Of a stretch of 64,000 nucleotides of DNA, positions 10,822-48,576 are shown piece by piece. A program made the position numbers and the translations under genes. Where the stretch lies: positions 744,001-808,000 of the forward strand of contig NZ_CP046244.1 in the NCBI RefSeq assembly GCF_009735625.1, given 5' to 3'. A model generated the notes under the pieces. It saw only the letters and a list, made by a program, of their open reading frames with translations, searched no databases and was not told where the DNA came from. Every line of letters starts with the position of its first letter. Position 1 is the stretch's first letter. Source of the stretch: Moorella glycerini (GTDB lineage Bacteria; Bacillota; DSM-521; Neomoorellales; Neomoorellaceae).

Positions 10822-11874
10822 TCAGGAACCCGGTACCCGCGCAAGCTGGCTGGTTTTATAAGCACCATATTTAGCTACCGCCTGGTAAAGGGCCAGGACG
10901 TTCCGGGGTGGTAGGTCAGCGCTCAAGATACCACTGGAGGTGGAAAAGATATATCCGCCGCCGGGCGCCGCCGCTAGCAGGAGTTGCTGGACTGCCGCCG
11001 TAATGGTTTCCGGCGTACCTGTAGCCAGGAGGTCCAGGTCGAAATTGCCCATCAAGCACAGGCGCCCGCTGTACTCCTTCTTAATGGCGCCAATGTCCAT
11101 GCCGGCGGCCGGTTCCAGGCACTGGATGCCGTCCAGGGGTAAAGTTGCCAGGTCGGGTAAAATAGCCTGCAAGTTACCGTCGGAGTGGTAAAGGACCGGA
11201 ACGCCCATGGCTTTAATGGCCTCTACCTGGCGGCGCAAAAGGGGCAAAAAGATTTCCCGCCACAGGCCGGGGTGAATGTAGGTTCCCCGCTCATAGGCAA
11301 TGTCGTCACCGATGAACAGGCCATGGGCCCCGGCCTGGACGCAGAGGCGGGCCAGCTCCAGGTTAAAGTCGACTACAGCCGCGGCCAGGTCGCTGATGGC
11401 TCCCTCCCGGCCGGCCACTGCCAGGAGAAAATCCGTAAAGTCAAAAAGCTTATTGGTTCCCTGGAAAGGGCCGTCTACAAAGGCAAAAACGAAGAAATCC
11501 GTTTCTTCCCGCCAGCGCCTTAAGGAACGCAGGTCAAAGGCGCTCGCGTCCGGCAGGTGGTAACTGGCTGCTTCCTTGACGGCGGGGATGGCCGGGACCT
11601 GGACGGCAGTCAGGCTCCCCTGCCGCCGCAGCCGCCGGCCCCAGATATCCTGGTAGCAGTCATTTCCCTCTTCCTTTAACGGCGCCTGGGGAGTAACGGC
11701 CAGGAGGTCCATTCCCAGGAGTTCCCGGGCAGCCACTTCCTCAGCAAAACCCGCCGGTCCTTCCCGGCCCAGCAGGGCCGCCACCAACCCCGGTTCCAGC
11801 TCAAATTCTCCCGCCGGCACCCGGTCGGGTCGTCCCCGGGCCAGGGCCACCTGCACCCGTTCAACATGGTTCAC
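10822..11874 (-). CDS. UroD-domain methyltransferase (MtaA/MtbA/MtvB-type)
   Basis: About 350 residues of the uroporphyrinogen-decarboxylase fold used by corrinoid and CoM methyltransferases. Blocks are VNHVERVQVALARGRPDRVP at the start, FAFVDGPFQG, AHGLFIGDDIAYERGTYIHPG, VPVLYHSDGNL (metal/substrate region, His followed by Asp) and IFSTSSGILSADLPPRNVLA. The true haem-pathway UroD would be out of place in this operon. It likely moves a methyl group from an O-methyl substrate to the corrinoid protein encoded at 18.2-18.8 kb. The GTG at 11874 has GGAGGCGAAGG upstream, which is better than the more upstream GTG at 11913. The methyl donor is not identifiable from sequence. Confidence 0.82.
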   Translation of the reverse strand: MNHVERVQVALARGRPDRVPAGEFELEPGLVAALLGREGPAGFAEEVAARELLGMDLLAVTPQAPLKEEGNDCYQDIWGRRLRRQGSLTAVQVPAIPAVKEAASYHLPDASAFDLRSLRRWREETDFFVFAFVDGPFQGTNKLFDFTDFLLAVAGREGAISDLAAAVVDFNLELARLCVQAGAHGLFIGDDIAYERGTYIHPGLWREIFLPLLRRQVEAIKAMGVPVLYHSDGNLQAILPDLATLPLDGIQCLEPAAGMDIGAIKKEYSGRLCLMGNFDLDLLATGTPETITAAVQQLLLAAAPGGGYIFSTSSGILSADLPPRNVLALYQAVAKYGAYKTSQLARVPGS

Positions 11875-11983
11875 GGGCCTTCGCCTCCAAAATAAAATTT
11901 TCTTCCTTGACACCGGTGCGGTTCGCCCCTAATAGAGGCTCAGGCGTTTACAAGAGGCACGAAGCAAAGTTTTTGGCAGCAAA

Positions 11984-13831
11984 TTATGGTAGTAAAAGTG
12001 AATTCATAAACACATCCTGGAAGGACGGCCGGGTCATGAGTTCGATATAGCCCACCCGGCGGGCTATTGTTTCACCCCGCTGCCTTTCGGCCAGGGAAAG
12101 GAGGGCCAGCCGCGCCCCGGTGCCGGCAGCGTTGCCCACCTGGCGGAAGGCGCCCAGGGGAAGTTGGGGGAACATGCCGATGGTAATGGCGCTTTCTAGC
12201 TTCAGGTGGGTACCAAAGGCCCCGGCGACCACCACTTCTTCCAGGTCGTCTACGGTGAGGCCCGCTGCCTCCAGGAGCAGCAGGGTACCGCTGGCGATGG
12301 CTGCCTTGGCCAGCTGGATCTCGCTGATGTCCTTCTGGGTTACCACCAGGTCGCTGTCAATGCCGGTTTCCTCAGCCGGCACCAGCAGGAATTCCGCCGG
12401 GCCACCCCCGGCAGGTCGCCTTACCCGGGGATGGTTTAAATCCAGCCGGCCGCTGGCGTTAATGACGCCGGTGCGGTAAAGCTCGGCCACGGCATCCAGG
12501 ATGCCGGAGCCGCAGATGCCCAGGGGCGGTGCACCGCCAATGCTCTCCCAGTAGACCTCCCGCCCGTCGTCACTTAAGCGCACGGCGGCGATGGCCCCGG
12601 TAATGGCGCGCATCCCCTGGGCGATGTGGGCGCCTTCAAAGGCCGGCCCCGATGCGCAGGAGCAGGAAAGCATTTTACCGCCGTAACTTAAAACAATTTC
12701 CGTATTGGTACCGATATCCAGGCCCAGGGTGACTTTGCGGGCCTCGTCAAGGCGGCTGCCCAGGATCATGGCCACATGGTCGCCGCCGACAAAGCCGGCT
12801 ATTACCGGCTGGAGATAGACATAGGCTCCCGGGCTGAAGTTTAAACCCAGGTTCCGGGCTTTCACTTCTACCGGGGTGGTCAGGGCCGGGACGTAGGGGG
12901 CCCGGGCCAGCTGGGCCACCGGCAGGTGCAACAACAGGTGGTGCATGGCAGTGTTACCCACGATGACGGCTTCTTCTATGTCTGCCGGGGTTACGCCGGC
13001 CTGCTCGGCCAGGGTGGCGGCCAGCCGGTTCAGCCCTTCGATTGCTACTTCCTGGATGCGCCGGTAGGCGGCTTCTCCCTCCAGGGCATAGCCCAGGCGC
13101 GCCATGACATCTTCGCCGTAGGCGATCTGGGGGTTCATGATGCCGTCGGCAGCCAGGGTGGCCCCGGTTTCCAGGTTGATCAGGAAACCGGCTACCTTGG
13201 TGGTCCCCAGGTCGACAGCCAGGCCCAGGGGCGGCGGCGCCGGCCGGCCGGCATAAATGTTGATCACCTCTGTACCGCGGACCGTCACCACGCCGCTGCC
13301 GCCGGCCGCCAGGGGCTCCGTCGCTAAAGCCAGGTTAAAATCTACCTCCGGGCGGTCCAGGCCATAAGCGGCCTCCAGCTCGCCGGCCACCTGCTGCCAG
13401 AGAGGCCGGGGGGTTTCAATGGTCGTCCTGGTTAACGGCAGGTTATACCTTTTAACCGGCGCTTCCGGGACTACTGCGACATCCAGCCCTTCTACCTGAA
13501 GTTGCTGCACGCCAAGCATGGATTCCGGCGGAATTTCCACTTTCAGCGGTCCCTGGATGACTGCCTGGCAGGCCAGGCGATAGCCCTGTTCCAGTTGCTC
13601 CGGCTTCAAGAAACGCTTTTCCGCCGGCGTCGGCTCCCCGGCGTCGCCGGCGGCTACCCGTACCCGGCAGCGGCCGCACAGACCCCTGCCGCCGCAGGGT
13701 GCCGTCAGGCCCCCGGACCCCAGGGCCAGCCCTATTTGCTGGGCCGCGGCTAAAATAGTCTGGCCGGCCGCAACCTGGGCGCGCCGGCCCACCGGCTGGA
13801 AATCAACCAGCACTTCCTTCAAACTTAGCAC
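11984..13831 (-). CDS. RamA-like corrinoid reactivation ferredoxin/ATPase (ASKHA fold)
   Basis: A 615-residue protein: an N-terminal [2Fe-2S] ferredoxin domain with C46, C52, C55 and C88 (APCGGRGLCGRC, LACQAV) and a long C-terminal ASKHA domain (LGLAVDLGTTKVAGFLINLETG, LGLDIGTNTEIVL, CGSGILDAVAELYRTG, VVAGAFGTHLKLESAITIG). Relatives use ATP to reduce inactive Co(II) corrinoid back to Co(I) in methyltransferase systems, the job expected here. The open frame starts at a GTG (13831), but a TTG at 13822 lies eight bases after AGGGGG and is the more likely start. Either way it overlaps the end of the response regulator gene, indicating coupling. Confidence 0.92.
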   Translation of the reverse strand: MLSLKEVLVDFQPVGRRAQVAAGQTILAAAQQIGLALGSGGLTAPCGGRGLCGRCRVRVAAGDAGEPTPAEKRFLKPEQLEQGYRLACQAVIQGPLKVEIPPESMLGVQQLQVEGLDVAVVPEAPVKRYNLPLTRTTIETPRPLWQQVAGELEAAYGLDRPEVDFNLALATEPLAAGGSGVVTVRGTEVINIYAGRPAPPPLGLAVDLGTTKVAGFLINLETGATLAADGIMNPQIAYGEDVMARLGYALEGEAAYRRIQEVAIEGLNRLAATLAEQAGVTPADIEEAVIVGNTAMHHLLLHLPVAQLARAPYVPALTTPVEVKARNLGLNFSPGAYVYLQPVIAGFVGGDHVAMILGSRLDEARKVTLGLDIGTNTEIVLSYGGKMLSCSCASGPAFEGAHIAQGMRAITGAIAAVRLSDDGREVYWESIGGAPPLGICGSGILDAVAELYRTGVINASGRLDLNHPRVRRPAGGGPAEFLLVPAEETGIDSDLVVTQKDISEIQLAKAAIASGTLLLLEAAGLTVDDLEEVVVAGAFGTHLKLESAITIGMFPQLPLGAFRQVGNAAGTGARLALLSLAERQRGETIARRVGYIELMTRPSFQDVFMNSLLLP

Positions 13832-15449
13832 CCCCTATTTTGCGGAACACGCTGGGCGTGTACCCTTCCTGCTTTTTAAATACCTGGCTGAAATAACGGG
13901 CGTCGTGATAACCGACCCGTTCGGCTATTGCCGCTACCGGCAGGTTGGTATTTAACAGCAATTCTTTAGCTGCTCTCAGGCGTACCCTGGTCAGGTAGTC
14001 TATGAAGTTCTGGCCCTTAACCTGCTTAAAGAGGCGGCTGAAATAACAGGGACTTAAATATACCTGCTGAGCGACTTCTTCCAGGGTGAGATCCTGGCTG
14101 AAGTTGGCTTCGATAAACTTGCTGGCCCGTTCAATAAGGGAAGAATTGCGTTGTTCCCTGCTGGTTGCTACCTGATCTGCCAGGTCCGCCAGGCGCGCCA
14201 GGATGCGCTCCCGCATAGCCGCCAGGTTATCCAGGTTTAAAAATTCGCTGCTGCCGGCCAGGGTGAGGTTGGAAACGGCCTCCGGGTCGGCTCCGCCTTC
14301 CAGGGCGGCATTGGCTGCCAGGGCAACCAGTTCCAGGATCTTCATCTTTAACAGGGCCGGGCGCCTTTCCTGTTCCAGGAGCAGTTTCATTAAAATATTG
14401 CTGGCCTGGCGGTAGGCCAGTTCCCGCTCACCCATGCGGATGGCCTGGGCCAGCTCCTGTTCCACCTGCACCGGCAGGGAGCGGCTGGCCCTGGACCGGG
14501 TAGCAACGTCGTCAGCATGGATAACCTGGTCGCCGCCATAAAGCAGGCGGAATTCAGCTGCCGCCACCGCCTCGGCATAGGAGCGGGCCAGGTCGGTAAC
14601 CCGTTCAGCCAGGCGACCAATACCCACCGTCACGGTCACTTCCGTGTCCTGGCGCACCTGGCGGCAGATGGCCTCGCCCAGCTGGATGGCGGCCCGGCGG
14701 GGGTCGCGTTCCTTTTCCAGGTGATCGATGGGCAGGAGAACGGCAAATTCGTCCCTGGTGACAGGTGCTACCAGGGCTCCCGGCCAGCCGGCGGTTGCCT
14801 GTTCAATGCTCTCCTTTACCCGCTGCTTTAAAAGCTGCCGTTCAATTTCCGTCCCTTCCCGGGCAAGGCTAGCAAAATTATCAATATCCACCAGCAGGGC
14901 CAGCCGCGGCAGGGAGGTGATCCCCAGGAAAAGGGCGCGGCTTTCGGCTTCGGCTGCCGTTATATTCCCGTTGATCAGGTCCATAATAAAGCCCAGGCGG
15001 ATCAGGGGCTTCATTTCTTTCAGGGCCTTTTTGAGCCGGGCCGTTTCCTGCTGGCGCCGGCGGGCGACCGCTATATCTCCTGCCAGTTCGTCCAGAAGGG
15101 CGATCATCTCTTCCCCGTCAACAGGTTTTAACAAATATTTTGAAGCGCCTAGAGAAACGGCTTCCCGGGCGTAGTCAAATTCGCCATAGGCGGTGACAAA
15201 GATGAACCTGGTCTCAGGTAGAAGAGCCCGGATCTCCCGGCCGGCAGTAAGGCCGTCCATGACAGGCATCTTAATGTCCAGGAAGACAATATCCGGCCGC
15301 AAAGTTGCTGCCAGGTTTACGGCCTCCATACCATTACCTGCTTCAGCGGCCACCTGGTACTGGGGCCGTTCCCTGGCCAGCAAAAAACGCATGGCCTGCC
15401 GCTCCAGGGGTTCATCATCAACAAGCAGGATCTTGATTTCCGTGGACAA
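13803..15449 (-). CDS. YesN-type response regulator (REC - central domain - AraC HTH)
   Basis: A 548-residue protein: a receiver domain with the phospho-acceptor D58 (VFLDIKMPVMDG), a central region resembling a degenerate GGDEF-like domain (LALLVDIDNFASL, VTVTVGIGRLAERV), and a C-terminal AraC double HTH (DLTLEEVAQQVYLSPCYFSRLFKQVKGQNFIDYLTRVRL, VAAIAERVGYHDARYFSQVFKKQEGYTPSVFRK). It follows the corrinoid-domain kinase by 32 bases and is clearly its partner. YesN regulators bind direct repeats at promoters; the likely target is the operon promoter near 18850. The start is a TTG (15449) with GGGGG upstream. Confidence 0.93.
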   Translation of the reverse strand: MSTEIKILLVDDEPLERQAMRFLLARERPQYQVAAEAGNGMEAVNLAATLRPDIVFLDIKMPVMDGLTAGREIRALLPETRFIFVTAYGEFDYAREAVSLGASKYLLKPVDGEEMIALLDELAGDIAVARRRQQETARLKKALKEMKPLIRLGFIMDLINGNITAAEAESRALFLGITSLPRLALLVDIDNFASLAREGTEIERQLLKQRVKESIEQATAGWPGALVAPVTRDEFAVLLPIDHLEKERDPRRAAIQLGEAICRQVRQDTEVTVTVGIGRLAERVTDLARSYAEAVAAAEFRLLYGGDQVIHADDVATRSRASRSLPVQVEQELAQAIRMGERELAYRQASNILMKLLLEQERRPALLKMKILELVALAANAALEGGADPEAVSNLTLAGSSEFLNLDNLAAMRERILARLADLADQVATSREQRNSSLIERASKFIEANFSQDLTLEEVAQQVYLSPCYFSRLFKQVKGQNFIDYLTRVRLRAAKELLLNTNLPVAAIAERVGYHDARYFSQVFKKQEGYTPSVFRKIGGAKFEGSAG

Positions 15450-15481: not shown

Positions 15482-17302
15482 TTACTCTTTAGTATAGGGA
15501 AAAGTGAGCTGAATGCAAGTCCCTTTTCCCGGCGTGCTGGTCACATCCAGGGCGCAGTTGCTGCCAAATTGATGCTGCAGGCGCCGGTAAACATTGACAA
15601 TCCCCAGCCCGCTCACCTGGCCTTTGCTACCGCCCTGTACCCGGAGGTCAAAGATGGCCTTCTGGACCTCAGGGGGGATGCCAATGCCGTCATCCTTTAT
15701 TTCTATATGCACCTGGTCCCCCACCCGGCGGCCGGAAACGGTAATTCTCCCGCCCTCCTCCCTGGGCTCCAGGCCGTGGATGACAGCGTTTTCTACCAGG
15801 GGCTGCAGGACCATGCAGGGTACGCGAGCCTCCAGCACATCTTCCTCTACCAGCACCTGGCTCTGGACCCGGTCCGGAAAACGCGTCTCCTGGATAAAGA
15901 GGTAGTCGCGCACGGCAGCTATCTCCTCAGCCAGGGTCACCGTTTCTTTGACCTGGTAGAGGCTGTAGCGCATGAGGCGGGCCAGGGCGCGTACCATTTT
16001 TTCGGTAGTTGCCGCCCCCTCAAAGAGGGCCAGGCGGGCGATGGTATTTAAAGAGTTAAACAAGAAATGGGGATTAACCTGGGACTGGAGGACTTTTAGT
16101 TCGGCTTCCTTCAGGGCCTGCTCCAGCTGGTGCTGCCTTTTCAGGAAGTGGATAAAGCTCGTGCGCTGCTCCTCCAGTTCTTTATTGACCAGTAAAACGG
16201 CGTTGAGCTGCATGATCTGCCCGGACACAAAGGAAAGGAGGCCGCAGACGGCTTCCAAATCCTTTATGGACAGCACCGGTACGGCCGCCTGCAATTGTGC
16301 CGGGGCGGGGTCGCCCTCTAAAAGGCAGTGGCCGCAGAGGACGGCTCCCACCGTACCGTCTTCATTGGCCAGGGGATAGGATATTTCCACCAGGCCGGCA
16401 TGGCAGCGGTAAATAAAAGCCTCTTTAAAATTACCCGCCAGGGTGGTAACATCCACGTCTTTGGCCGGGTAGCCCTGGAGTAAATGGCAATGCCGGGAGC
16501 ATTCCAGGAAGCCTCCCAAAGGGGTCAAAGGATTACCGGCGGCATCCACCATGATCAGGTGCAGCCCGGTCATGCGGGTAAAGGCCAGCTGCAAGTCTTC
16601 CAGGGAACCTTCCCCAAAGAATAAATCCAGGGTAGCCGGTGCCAGGACCGCCTGGCGTTTCTGGCCGGTGCCGATCAGGTCCTTGATCAGCTGGACGGCG
16701 GCGGTGGCATCGGGCGCGTAGCCATCGGCCCCCATTTTGGCGGCAATAGTCTCATTCAGCGGCGTACCGCCCACCACCACTTTGACCTTGCCCCGCCAGC
16801 CGGCCTCTTGCAGGGCGGCAATGGTTTCGCCCATGGCTCCCCGGGTAGAGGAAAGGAGGGCCGACAGGCACAGGACGTCAGGATGGTATTTAATTACCGC
16901 TTCGACAAAGGTGCTGGGAGCGACATTGACGCCCAGGTCAATTACCTCGAAACCCGAGGCTTCGAGCATTATCCCCAGTAAATTTTTACCGATATCATGG
17001 ATGTCTCCCTGGACGGTGCCGATTATGGCCCGCCCCACCGGTTGCACCTGGCCGGTCAGCATAAAAGGCTTGAGCTCCTTCAAACCGGTGTGCATGGCCC
17101 GGGCGGTAATAATCAGATCGGTGACGTAAATCTCATTGCGTTCAAACCTTTCCCCCACCACATCCATGGCGGCCACAAAGCCGTCGGAAATAATCCGGGC
17201 CGGATCTACCCCGGCGGCCAGGGCCTGCTTAACTTCTTCCCGTACCTGAACGGCATTGCCGTTGATTACAGCCTGGATTAAATTTTCCAGGGAAAAAGGC
17301 AT
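15482..17302 (-). CDS. Hybrid sensor: corrinoid(B12)-binding domain + PocR domain + LytS-type histidine kinase
   Basis: 606 residues in three parts. Residues 1-88 are the helical cap and 90-210 the Rossmann B12-binding fold of methyltransferase corrinoid proteins, with GDIHDIGKNLL and the cobalt-ligand His at about 102; the DGYAPDA end block matches the operon's own corrinoid protein. Residues about 222-345 are a PocR-like sensory domain with C268, C272, C300, C323 and C326. A coiled linker leads to a LytS-type kinase: QVNPHFLFNSLNT with H412, ENAVIHG (504-510) and DDGIGIP. No transmembrane segment is seen, so it is cytosolic. It has an AGGAGG SD just downstream of a terminator-like hairpin. 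Sensing of corrinoid or its methylation state is inferred. Confidence 0.9.
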   Translation of the reverse strand: MPFSLENLIQAVINGNAVQVREEVKQALAAGVDPARIISDGFVAAMDVVGERFERNEIYVTDLIITARAMHTGLKELKPFMLTGQVQPVGRAIIGTVQGDIHDIGKNLLGIMLEASGFEVIDLGVNVAPSTFVEAVIKYHPDVLCLSALLSSTRGAMGETIAALQEAGWRGKVKVVVGGTPLNETIAAKMGADGYAPDATAAVQLIKDLIGTGQKRQAVLAPATLDLFFGEGSLEDLQLAFTRMTGLHLIMVDAAGNPLTPLGGFLECSRHCHLLQGYPAKDVDVTTLAGNFKEAFIYRCHAGLVEISYPLANEDGTVGAVLCGHCLLEGDPAPAQLQAAVPVLSIKDLEAVCGLLSFVSGQIMQLNAVLLVNKELEEQRTSFIHFLKRQHQLEQALKEAELKVLQSQVNPHFLFNSLNTIARLALFEGAATTEKMVRALARLMRYSLYQVKETVTLAEEIAAVRDYLFIQETRFPDRVQSQVLVEEDVLEARVPCMVLQPLVENAVIHGLEPREEGGRITVSGRRVGDQVHIEIKDDGIGIPPEVQKAIFDLRVQGGSKGQVSGLGIVNVYRRLQHQFGSNCALDVTSTPGKGTCIQLTFPYTKE

Positions 17303-17370: not shown

Positions 17371-18168
17371 TTAAGCTTTAATTTTCCCGGCGCGGGCGGC
17401 GGCAATATACTCCAGGCAGTATTCATCCTGGCCGGCCAGGGCTGTAGCCGCTCGCAAAAGGCCCATCAGGGGCATATCCAGGGGGTCTAGGATAAAAGCA
17501 TCCATACCCCGGGTCAGGCACATGACCATAAAGGCCCGGTTTAACAGCCGGCGCTCCGGTAAGCCATAAGAAACATTGGATAGGCCGCAGATAGTATGAA
17601 CTTTGGGGTACTTTTCCTTTAAAGCCGCCACCGCTTCTAAAGCTTCGACGCCGTACTGGCTGTTAACCCCCAGGGGCTTAATCAGGGGGTCCAGGTAAAT
17701 ATCTTCTTCCGGTATCCCGGCTTCCACCAGCCCCGGTACCAGTCTGCCGGCTACCCGCAAGCGGTCGGCCACCGACTCCGGCATGCCGCCGTCGTCCATG
17801 CAGAGGGCAATGACCTTAGCTTTATATTTCTGCACCAGGGGCAAAACTTCCTGCCAGCGCTGCTTCTCCGCAGTGATGGAATTGATCATGGCCTGGCCTT
17901 TATGGGCCGCCAGGCCGGCGGCCAGGGCTTCGGCGCTGGGACTGTCGATACACAAGGGCACGTCAACGACTTCCTGGACGATATGCACCAGCCATTCCAT
18001 GACCTTATCTTCTTCGCCGATGCTTGTCCCGCAGTTGACGTCAATAATGTGGGCGCCGGCCTCAACCTGCTTTCTGGCCAGGTCCTGGATATATTCCTTA
18101 TCGCGTTCGGCAATGGCCCGGGCAATGGCCTTGCGGCTGGAATTTATCAGCTCACCGACAACCAGCAT
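17371..18168 (-). CDS. Pterin-binding methyltransferase (methylcorrinoid:tetrahydrofolate, MtvC/MtgA/AcsE-like)
   Basis: A 265-residue TIM-barrel of the dihydropteroate-synthase-like superfamily. Characteristic blocks are GELINSSRKAI (start), GAHIIDVNCG (pterin site), PLCIDSPSAEALAAGL, MINSITAEKQRW and GLSNVSYGLPERRLLNR, typical of AcsE/MtgA-type methyltransferases. It should pass the methyl group from the methyl-corrinoid protein to tetrahydrofolate, feeding the Wood-Ljungdahl pathway. It starts 13 bases after the corrinoid protein gene with a GGAGG SD, so the two are one translational unit. The chromosomal AcsE normally sits with acs genes; this copy's partner is the adjacent corrinoid protein, so a demethylation role is preferred. 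Confidence 0.9.
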   Translation of the reverse strand: MLVVGELINSSRKAIARAIAERDKEYIQDLARKQVEAGAHIIDVNCGTSIGEEDKVMEWLVHIVQEVVDVPLCIDSPSAEALAAGLAAHKGQAMINSITAEKQRWQEVLPLVQKYKAKVIALCMDDGGMPESVADRLRVAGRLVPGLVEAGIPEEDIYLDPLIKPLGVNSQYGVEALEAVAALKEKYPKVHTICGLSNVSYGLPERRLLNRAFMVMCLTRGMDAFILDPLDMPLMGLLRAATALAGQDEYCLEYIAAARAGKIKA

Positions 18169-18836: not shown

Positions 18837-18865
18837 ATGTTAGTTCATTTTTAAGTCTATTTCAA
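18837..18865 (-). promoter_or_regulatory. Promoter of the corrinoid methyltransferase operon
   Basis: Minus strand TTGAAA (18865-18860), 17-base spacer, TAACAT (18842-18837), about 27 bases before the GTG start. Its spacing is ideal and its boxes sub-optimal, as expected for an activator-dependent promoter. Confidence 0.65.
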
Positions 18866-18986
18866 GATTACTTGCGCTGCAAGGCTAAATTATTGCCAAA
18901 GGTTTGTTTTCTTGCCCTTGGAGGAAATTACCGGTATCTTCCCCGCTCGAGGGCACCCGGATTTTTGCAGTCCCCCTTCCAGGACC

Positions 18987-46344: not shown

Positions 46345-46469
46345 TATTTGGGGCAGGGCAGTTATAGATGTCCCTGATTGACAAAGAAGCCAGTTCGTTG
46401 TAGCATGGAATTAACAAGGATTAGTACCTGCTTTCTTAATTTTCTTGCCGGCAGATGGGAGAAATGGCC

Positions 46470-47825
46470 ATGAATAATAAATTTTACCTCTTGTTTATTG
46501 CTTTGACCCTGGTGGAAACCATAGCCGCAATCATCCTTTTCCAGGCTTCACCCTTCCTGGCCTCCCTGGCCTTCGGGGGATTAAATGCCCTGGGGTTAGG
46601 GGCTTTAAAGGCTTTCCAGGGACCCCCTTGCTCATTAACCCAGTCGCCGGTGGAAGAAGAGGATGAGATCGGCGGGACCGAAGGTATTTTCGCTTCTACC
46701 CTGCAGATTGCCCATGAGACTCTACCGGTATTACGCGGGGGGTTAAATGAAGCAACGGCCGCCAAGACGGCCGAGATCATCCAGAATATCACCGAAGTCC
46801 CGGCCATAGCCATAACCGACCGCGAACACGTCCTGACCTTCCTGGGGGTAGGCTGCGACCAGCACCGGGCCGGTGACCGGATCTTAACGGAAGCCACCAA
46901 AGAAGTCATTGCCACGGGCAAGTTGAAGGTGGTGCATACCCCCCAGGGGCTCTGCTGCCCCAGGTATAATATGGGCTGCAACTGCCCTTTAAAAGCAGCC
47001 GTTATCGTTCCTTTAAAATGCCGGGAAGAAATTGTCGGCGCTTTAAAGCTCTACCAGACCAGGGAGGGGGTCTTCCCGCCCCAGATCATCCGCCTGGCCA
47101 TTGGCCTGGCCGATCTTTTGAGCCTGCAAATCGAGCTGGCCGAGCTGGACCGCCAGCGCCAGCTCCTGACTGAAGCCCGGCTGGAAGCATTGAACGCCCA
47201 AATCAACCCCCACTTCTTCTTTAATACCCTGAATACCATTATTAGCTTCAGCCGTACCGACCCGGAGCGGGCCCGCCGCTTGCTGATCCGCCTGGCCAGC
47301 CTCTTCCGCCGGACCTTAAACCGCCGCGGCAGCCTGACAACCCTGCGGGAAGAGCTGGAATGTGTGCGTACCTACCTGGTCCTGGAAAAGGCCCGTTTCG
47401 GTAATAAATTCCGATACTTCCAGGATGTACCGGTAGAATTGCTGGATTATCACATTCCCGTCCTCAGCCTGCAGCCGCTGGTAGAAAACGCCATCAACCA
47501 CGGCCTGTTGCCCAAAGAGGGGCCCGGGATGATCAAAATATCCGGGCGCCTGGCAGGCAATGAGCTCCATTTAACCGTAAAGGATGACGGTGTCGGTATC
47601 CCGCCTGAGAAAATCCCCCTGGTTCTCCAGCCAGGATACGGGTCTGGTAACGGCGTCGGTTTAAGTAACGTCAACCTGCGCTTCCAGAACCTTTACGGCC
47701 CGGATTATGGTTTGCGCCTGGATAGCAACATTAACGGCACGACTGTTTTTTTGCGGGTGCCCGTTATCCGGCCGGCAGTCGTAAAAGATGCCTCAGCAAA
47801 GGAGTTGCTGGTTAATGAAGCTTAA
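46470..47825 (+). CDS. LytS-family sensor histidine kinase with GAF-like Cys-rich domain
   Basis: About 451 residues. One or two N-terminal membrane segments (FYLLFIALTLVETIAAIILF, LASLAFGGLNALGLGALKAF) lead to a GAF-like domain (about 75-205) with cysteines in GVGCDQH, GLCCPRY and GCNCPLKAAVIVPLKC: six in all, more than usual. The kinase follows: NAQINPHFFFNTLNTI (His about 248), ENAINHG and DDGVGIP. It could bind a metal or Fe-S cluster; a signal cannot be named. It is followed by the LytTR regulator, whose start overlaps its end. Short N-terminal alternatives exist (ATG at 46455 or 46464); 46470 has GGGAG eight bases upstream. Confidence 0.88.
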   Translation: MNNKFYLLFIALTLVETIAAIILFQASPFLASLAFGGLNALGLGALKAFQGPPCSLTQSPVEEEDEIGGTEGIFASTLQIAHETLPVLRGGLNEATAAKTAEIIQNITEVPAIAITDREHVLTFLGVGCDQHRAGDRILTEATKEVIATGKLKVVHTPQGLCCPRYNMGCNCPLKAAVIVPLKCREEIVGALKLYQTREGVFPPQIIRLAIGLADLLSLQIELAELDRQRQLLTEARLEALNAQINPHFFFNTLNTIISFSRTDPERARRLLIRLASLFRRTLNRRGSLTTLREELECVRTYLVLEKARFGNKFRYFQDVPVELLDYHIPVLSLQPLVENAINHGLLPKEGPGMIKISGRLAGNELHLTVKDDGVGIPPEKIPLVLQPGYGSGNGVGLSNVNLRFQNLYGPDYGLRLDSNINGTTVFLRVPVIRPAVVKDASAKELLVNEA

Positions 47826-48576
47826 AGCCCTGATTGTCGATGACGAATACCCGGCGCGGCAGGAACTACGCTTTATGCTCCAGGAGTTTAAAGACGTAGA
47901 AGTGGTGGGAGAAGCCACCAATGCCCGGGAGGCTTTGAATCTCGTCAGCGCCCTTGATTACACGGTGCTTTTCCTGGATATCAATATGCCCGGGATGAAC
48001 GGCCTGGAACTCTCCCGGGCTATTCAAAAGCGACCCAACCCGCCCTTCATTATCTTTGTCACGGCCTATGAGGAGTACGCCCTGCAGGCCTTTGAAGTCA
48101 ACGCCGTCGATTACCTTTTAAAGCCCTTCGATGAAAAACGCCTGCGCCAGGCTATTGATAAAGTCCGCCGCCTGGTGGAACAGCGCCAGCAGCAGCCGGC
48201 AACTCCTGAAGCAGGCATCGGTAGCGACGGCAAAGGCCGCCTCAACCGCCTGCCGGTAGAAAAGGATGGCAAGACCATCCTCCTGGATCAAAACGACCTG
48301 ATTTATGCCTGTACCCAGGGGGATAATGTTTATTTAAAAACATTAAATGAACAATACCTCACCCGTTTTACCCTCAAAGAACTGGAAAACCGCCTGGACC
48401 CCCGGGTTTTCTTCCGCTGCCACCGCTGTTATATCGTCAACCTGACCAGGGTGCGGGAAATTGTTCCCTTCTTCAACGGCACCTACACCTTGATTATGGC
48501 CGACAAGCAGCAAAGCGAGGTGCCGGTAAGCCGCAACCAGGCCCGCAAGCTAAAGAGCCTCCTGGGCATCAATTAA
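47815..48576 (+). CDS. LytTR-family response regulator
   Basis: About 253 residues: a receiver domain (ALIVDDEYPARQELRFML, D55 in LFLDINMPGMNG, TAYEEYALQAF, YLLKPF) and a C-terminal LytTR DNA-binding domain (YACTQGDNVYLKTLNEQYLTRFTLKELENRL, FFRCHRCYIVNL, VPVSRNQARKLKSLLGI). The ATG at 47815 overlaps the kinase stop and is preceded by AGGAG. LytS/LytR pairs of this type often control uptake or use of a small carboxylate; next to acetyl-CoA synthetase, acetate or pyruvate is a guess. Confidence 0.94.
   Translation: MKLKALIVDDEYPARQELRFMLQEFKDVEVVGEATNAREALNLVSALDYTVLFLDINMPGMNGLELSRAIQKRPNPPFIIFVTAYEEYALQAFEVNAVDYLLKPFDEKRLRQAIDKVRRLVEQRQQQPATPEAGIGSDGKGRLNRLPVEKDGKTILLDQNDLIYACTQGDNVYLKTLNEQYLTRFTLKELENRLDPRVFFRCHRCYIVNLTRVREIVPFFNGTYTLIMADKQQSEVPVSRNQARKLKSLLGIN

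Follow-up and report, generated by a model that had tools for sequence, protein, structure and literature searches.

The PocR domain was reportedly defined by Anantharaman and Aravind in 2005. In MecA of the mec cassette and in the PDU1D two-component system, a PocR input is combined with a histidine kinase and a neighboring regulator, and both systems sit in corrinoid or B12-enzyme operons (PMC9768040, PMC4207490). The kinase described here, P0001, shares all of these features, but whereas MecA (430 aa) and PDU1D are reported, in the accessible text of those papers, with PocR only, P0001 adds an N-terminal corrinoid carrier of 212 residues.

Like the carriers MtgC, MtvC, CobDH (4jgi), and 1y80, P0001 has a cap and a Rossmann fold with the motif DxHxxG..SxL..GG; unlike them, it is fused to PocR and a kinase, falls in a separate clade, has a cap proline replaced, and scores below the NCBIfam cutoffs. 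Cap-plus-Rossmann domains that bind B12 also occur in the regulators CarH/LitR, CtMerR, and the photocobilins. As far as the accessible portions of the literature describe them, these are photoreceptors that use adenosylcobalamin and bear a Wx9EH-type signature, which P0001 lacks, and they have neither a kinase core nor a link to a corrinoid methyltransferase operon; indeed, the known B12 sensors described there are photoreceptors (PMC9304148, PMC10979010, PMC11796333). The YesM/YesN-type systems, to which the GanS core (6swj) belongs, share with P0001 the PF06580 kinase core and a REC-AraC regulator, but P0001 has no clear membrane segment and carries an intracellular cofactor domain instead. 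P0001 is a new combination of known parts. A full-text literature search, with most subscription papers outside it, found no described kinase with a methyl-carrier corrinoid domain.

The question on which P0001 bears is how anaerobes choose among their many corrinoid methyltransferase systems, the regulation of which is, according to a 2026 paper, largely unexplored (PMC13222342). We read P0001 as a sensor of corrinoid state, located in the cytosol and tuned by PocR, that would drive the adjacent regulator at a repeat box and thereby autoregulate its methyltransferase operon; from the sequences we give this reading a probability of about 0.6. Together, a soluble kinase and its predicted corrinoid, a regulator, a probable DNA site, and an operon make up a compact, testable unit, which Moorella thermoacetica, a model acetogen, has as well. 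A kinase driven by the state of its cobalt would be an example of B12-state sensing beyond light sensing, possibly with a cobalt-methyl mark as the signal.

Gene, domains, and fold of the kinase

P0001 is encoded in a 64,000-nucleotide stretch of the Moorella glycerini genome, which was analyzed as a whole and is called the window (Table 1). The open reading frame given in the initial annotation is real, but it belongs on the minus strand; on the plus strand of 15482-17302, stops interrupt frame 1. The domain order found with Pfam is B12-binding_2 (the cap; residues 5 to 78, E = 2.8e-20), B12-binding (91 to 203, E = 3.3e-23), PocR (PF10114; 233 to 339, E = 2e-15, 57.4 bits versus a gathering score of 23.9), His_kinase (PF06580; 400 to 479, E = 2.6e-27, 95.3 bits), and HATPase_c (497 to 604, E = 1.6e-17, 64.4 bits). 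All five are above the curated cutoffs, which bears out the PocR and LytS-type kinase domains named in that annotation. The motifs of the kinase core are the H-box HFLFN from residue 412 (H412), VENA at 503, DDGIG at 537, and GLGI at 565.

Residues 1 to 210 had been said to resemble the operon's carrier, including its GDIHDIGKNL motif, and they do: BLASTP aligned residues 5 to 212 of P0001 with the carrier P0002 at 92 identities in 208 positions (44%, E = 7e-64), and GDIHDIGKN starts at residue 99, so that by homology H102 is the predicted cobalt-ligand histidine. A likeness this strong goes well beyond what chance would give, and relatives keep the architecture as a whole. P0001 fell below the NCBIfam whole-protein cutoffs for MtgC (198.9 bits versus 370) and pyl_corrinoid (166.5 versus 215.3), as did the operon carrier itself (250.5 and 210.2 bits, respectively).

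The best solved match to the front of P0001 was the Moorella corrinoid protein 1y80, and the best match to the back was the GanS kinase core 6swj (E = 8.9e-45). Another Moorella genome, G005, encodes a protein that matches the M. thermoacetica stretch of 1y80 at 100% identity. No clear membrane segment was found in P0001 (the top 19-residue mean hydropathy was 1.56). With a pLDDT of 71 and a pTM of 0.37, the structure model, which includes a low-confidence linker helix at residues 346 to 408, is too weak to give the domain arrangement; Foldseek searches with it returned already known folds only.

Table 1. Features of the kinase operon, with positions in the window
Feature	Position	Strand	Basis
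UroD-family methyltransferase P0006, putative MTI	10822..11913	−	Domain searches
RACE/RACo-type corrinoid reductive activase P0005 (2Fe-2S + ASKHA)	11984..13831	−	Domain searches
Response regulator P0004: REC + GGDEF_2 + AraC-type HTH	13803..15449	−	Pfam
Sensor histidine kinase P0001, 606 aa	15482..17302	−	Open reading frame and Pfam
PocR region of P0001, residues 225-372, with C268, C272, C300, C323	16187..16630	−	Pfam, alignment
MtgC/CobDH-type corrinoid-carrier module of P0001, residues 1-212	16667..17302	−	Pfam, BLASTP, solved-structure match
MTII P0003, pterin-binding methyl-THF:corrinoid methyltransferase	17371..18168	−	PRK07535, 375 bits, cutoff 259
Stand-alone corrinoid carrier P0002, 209 aa	18181..18810	−	Domain searches
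Sigma-70-like promoter TTGAAA-17-TAACAT, 9 of 12, just downstream of box	18837..18865	−	Motif scan
Conserved repeat box upstream of operon, candidate regulator site: GGCAAGAA, GGCAATAA, CGCAAGTA	18869..18916	−	Alignment, core search

Predicted corrinoid-binding residues and common descent

In an alignment of 22 kinases of this type, F53, D100, H102, G105, S147, L149, G178, and G179 were kept in every sequence. The cobalamin motif DxHxxG...SxL...GG is complete in all 22, which fits a corrinoid carrier domain of the base-off/His-on kind. D100, H102, S147, G178, and G179 are the equivalents of D757, H759, S804, G833, and G834 of MetH. In MetH the methyl cap is formed by F708 and L715; the matching residues of P0001 are F53, invariant among the kinases, and V60. 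In CobDH, the crystallized O-demethylase carrier, the cobalamin contacts are Asp100, His102, and Ser147, the same numbers as in P0001 (PMC3727330).

The kinases and the carriers differ at the cap. The proline corresponding to MetH P716, beside the match to L715, was present in 86 of 88 carriers but in none of the 22 kinases, in which the position is taken by T (16 kinases), M (3), V (2), or I (1). The residue after it is typically D in the kinases (20 of 22) and E in the carriers (74 of 88), and C145 is found in all the kinases versus 14 of the carriers. Judged by MetH, the cap substitution makes the sensor distinguishable from the carrier exactly where the cap meets the upper face.

Conservation was uneven along the protein. 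Mean pairwise identity among the kinases was 64% in the B12 part, 62% in the kinase, 52% in the cap, and 39% in PocR. When nine distant kinases were scanned with Pfam, the B12 domain was recognized in all nine. PocR exceeded its cutoff in five of them (L013, L029, L030, L012, and, narrowly, L032, at 25.8 versus 23.9), fell short in L031 (22.6 versus 23.9), and was unrecognized in L033, L035, and L038. Across five Moorella pairs, dN/dS of the B12 part was 0.033 to 0.147. Because the B12 part is well kept and PocR is divergent, the corrinoid part would be the input that stays constant, with PocR as the one that varies.

The kinase cores of the 22 kinases, plus a fragment from G007, formed one clade in a tree of 43 rows (support, 99/98). 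In a tree of 119 rows, the 23 kinase B12 domains formed one clade (91/92, which is just under the tree tool's star mark), and the carriers encoded in those operons fell outside it. The two clades together mark the B12 domain as an old, co-inherited sensor part, and the trees indicate that both halves of P0001-type kinases stem from a single old fusion. A recent local duplication of the operon carrier was rejected, as the kinase B12 domains have their own clade. The initial annotation had called the domain a duplicated corrinoid fold that mimics the real carrier; the likeness stands, but the recent duplicate does not, and the separate clade and the diagnostic cap substitution make "mimic" a hypothesis rather than an observation.

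A survey for kinases with this domain order had also been proposed. With a profile of close relatives, and with up to three candidates scored per genome, the full B12-PocR-kinase architecture recurred in 20 of 398 genomes of the phylum, in five families; 18 rows cover it without a break; G048 and G213 were confirmed as single frames. The B12 kinase was present as one frame in 12 of the 22 genomes of the class, in addition to a copy split over two contigs (G015) and the G007 fragment, and it was present in 6 of 20 genomes of the order of G237. Among the 80 loci listed from a scan of named genomes, mostly carriers and kinases, there was no full-length relative.

The G007 fragment (L148 5316-6200) covers kinase residues 310 to 604 only, and the other operon genes had no clear match around it. 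In Bacillota MAG-64, a PocR-like gene (173 aa) directly precedes a corrinoid carrier gene (L062 9046-10220), so that the two sensor parts of the kinase are separate neighbors. A weakly PocR-like protein, which also resembles the C-terminal half of an AraC-type regulator, is encoded beside a corrinoid carrier gene in Desulfosporosinus sp. BG (L085 9013-11000).

Operon, repeat box, and the G006 deletion

The six minus-strand genes run in the order carrier, MTII, kinase, REC-AraC regulator, RACE-type activase, and UroD methyltransferase, separated by no more than about 70 bases or overlapping briefly. This order was complete in nine of the 10 Moorellaceae loci with flanks (G000, which is the window, and G001, G002, G004, G005, G009, G010, G016, and G017), the exception being G006. 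A response-regulator gene adjoins the B12 kinase in all 19 loci examined, the window included; in the window the REC-AraC gene is directly downstream, which supports the earlier proposal that the kinase acts through an AraC-type regulator. At least one corrinoid-methyltransferase gene was near the kinase in 16 of the 17 loci with enough flank (G160 and G368 were left out because their contigs were too short to judge). In G086 the kinase-regulator pair has rpoN and gap/pgk as neighbors and methyltransferase genes are missing from its surroundings, which counts against our reading of P0001.

UroD partners varied. UroD was not found near the kinase at the G129 and G086 loci, and a dedicated UroD partner family was rejected, as the kinase-adjacent UroDs are scattered in the tree (15 labeled rows of 40, with 5 changes). 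The genome of the window has 21 matches to P0006, a large set of possibly substrate-specific enzymes. In G105 the genes for UroD, the B12 kinase, and the regulator overlap end to end, by 14 and 4 bases (L144 8015-11557), and no carrier, MTII, or RACE gene was found in the surroundings of the kinase. None of the zinc-motif patterns E-x14-E-x20-H, D-x27-C-x39-C, and H-x-C was found in P0006. Since zinc is reported to be absent from Cdm and the M. thermoacetica O-demethylase (PMC13222342), the missing motifs are uninformative.

A repeat block of the GGCAAGAA type upstream of the carrier gene is conserved among seven aligned Moorella genomes. Three units were recognized in G000 and G002, two in G001, G004, and G005, and one in G009 and G010; in the window the units start 19 and 21 bases apart. 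When 16 genomes were searched for the core CCTTTGGCAAGAATTTAGCCTTGC with up to three mismatches, nine had it: these are precisely the Moorella genomes in which the carrier gene is present, and in each of them the core lies upstream of that gene. It was absent from G006, G007, G015, G016, G017, G053, and G129. The sole extra site was a weak one in G002 (three mismatches), and the reversed core, used as a control, gave zero matches. Both Moorella genomes without the carrier gene (G006 and G007) are thus also without the box. The family relatives G016 and G017 have the whole operon, and the box was not found in them, a second point against our reading. Sigma-70-like sites like the one listed in Table 1 were no commoner in the region than in shuffles. 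It is plausible from these alignments that the box serves its own operon as a local switch, and a conserved box nearly unique to the operon promoter suggests that the operon-level regulation proposed in the initial annotation takes the form of autoregulation.

By position and order, the carrier-MTII pair corresponds to mtvC5 (Mothe_c21700) and mtvA3 (Mothe_c21690) of M. thermoacetica DSM 521, a match made by hand arithmetic at about 2.11 Mb of 2.53 Mb. Transcripts of both genes are reported to increase on methanol versus glucose; the accessible account of this response does not name the operon's kinase gene (PMC13391211). The reported increase speaks for our reading; that it belongs to genes matched by position weighs against it.

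G006 provides a natural experiment. Its carrier gene is gone (the best other match was 56%; the genome is estimated to be 100% complete, in 50 contigs), and its MTII gene is a decayed remnant in two fragments, 88.7% and 89.4% identical to G005 (L056 9832-10480), that lies directly before an intact kinase-regulator-RACE-UroD run. Mismatches at the three codon positions were 0.078, 0.085, and 0.13 in the remnant versus 0.049, 0.030, and 0.155 in the kinase, for which dN/dS versus G005 was 0.14. All four remaining genes are open and conserved (dN/dS versus G005 of 0.14 to 0.21, in a single genome that split from G005 recently); dN versus G009 was slightly raised for the kinase (0.071 versus 0.057) and the regulator (0.109 versus 0.083). 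This retention fits a sensor that itself uses RACE and UroD, but as one recent event in which the box was lost too, it decides nothing alone. A kinase kept without the carrier, MTII, and box is a poor fit to a function limited to autoregulating the operon, and in this respect G006 also counts against our reading.

Proposed mechanism and its rivals

Because a complete B12 methyl-carrier domain is encoded in a methyl-stripping operon, P0001 probably senses the state of the cofactor to switch the operon. P0001 would be a LytS/YesM-type kinase whose main input is the corrinoid held by its own methyl-carrier domain, with the cobamide predicted, by homology only, to bind base-off with H102 as the lower ligand. 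Cobalt alkylation or redox state, occupancy, or both would move the four-helix cap, and this movement, together with a PocR ligand signal, may travel along the long helix into the kinase core. The methylated substrate is probably what PocR reports on, and the corrinoid domain probably indicates in what state the system is working. The constant adjacency of the regulator gene suggests that P0001 would phosphorylate the REC-AraC regulator. As the box upstream of the carrier gene is conserved and near-unique, the regulator may act there to adjust its own operon.

The kinase could even be a decoy carrier inside the catalytic cycle under its own control, an idea that we regard as possible but tentative. 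The UroD-type methyltransferase would move the substrate methyl onto the kinase's own Co(I), MTII would unload it to tetrahydrofolate, the RACE activase would rescue oxidized Co(II), and the methylated fraction of the kinase would be a direct readout of methyl flux. The cobalt-methyl bond would then be a covalent organometallic mark on a kinase, placed by the regulated enzymes. The genes left intact in G006 after carrier deletion and MTII decay hint at such a decoy, as does the UroD-kinase overlap in G105, around which carrier, MTII, and RACE genes were not found, but the loci where UroD was not found (G129 and G086), the loss of the box in G006, and the kinase cap's own signature speak against it. 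It is rather unlikely that the kinase reports only whether the cofactor is present (apo versus holo), sparing the operon when it is lacking, with methylation state irrelevant. The conservation of all binding residues would agree with this, and the replacement of the cap proline in every kinase could mean that exposure of the cobalt to a methyltransferase is no longer needed. A supply sensor leaves unexplained, however, the retention of a complete methyl-carrier cap (F53 and V60), the linkage to several UroD methyltransferase subfamilies, and the PocR domain.

That the B12 domain is no sensor at all but serves as an accessory methyl carrier or docks the kinase to the methyltransferase complex seems improbable: the 44% identity to the real carrier, the complete carrier residues, and the kept kinase, RACE, and UroD of carrierless G006 would suit it, but the domain is fused to a complete kinase core with a conserved H-box, a regulator is adjacent at 19 of 19 loci, and the cap substitution is kinase specific. 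We consider it very improbable that the B12 domain has become a relic and that PocR is the only signal input, the latter as proposed for the dichloromethane-cassette kinase MecA. Our searches commonly returned PocR kinases that lack a B12 domain, and MecA is described as one (PMC9768040), but in the P0001 type the B12 domain is the better-conserved sensor, under the low dN/dS seen in the Moorella pairs, and it is the PocR part that is decaying. Light sensing of the CarH/photocobilin kind was rejected and is hardly credible, even though B12 regulators of similar solved fold include CtMerR and the photocobilins. The signature given for these proteins (Wx9EH, or GxxW and EH; PMC9304148, PMC11796333) is missing in 22 of 22 kinases: F stands where the Trp would be in all of them, and in place of EH there is D/E and then L/V. 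Kinases are not mentioned in the main text of the photocobilin paper.

Two further loci were noted in the genome of the window. A second LytS-type kinase lies at 46455-48576 of the window, outside the P0001 operon (match at genome positions 791151-791762), and a same-strand open reading frame overlaps its end. Outside the window, at G000:C1:474521-475133, a carrier match falls in two pieces with short frames and is possibly a frameshifted gene.
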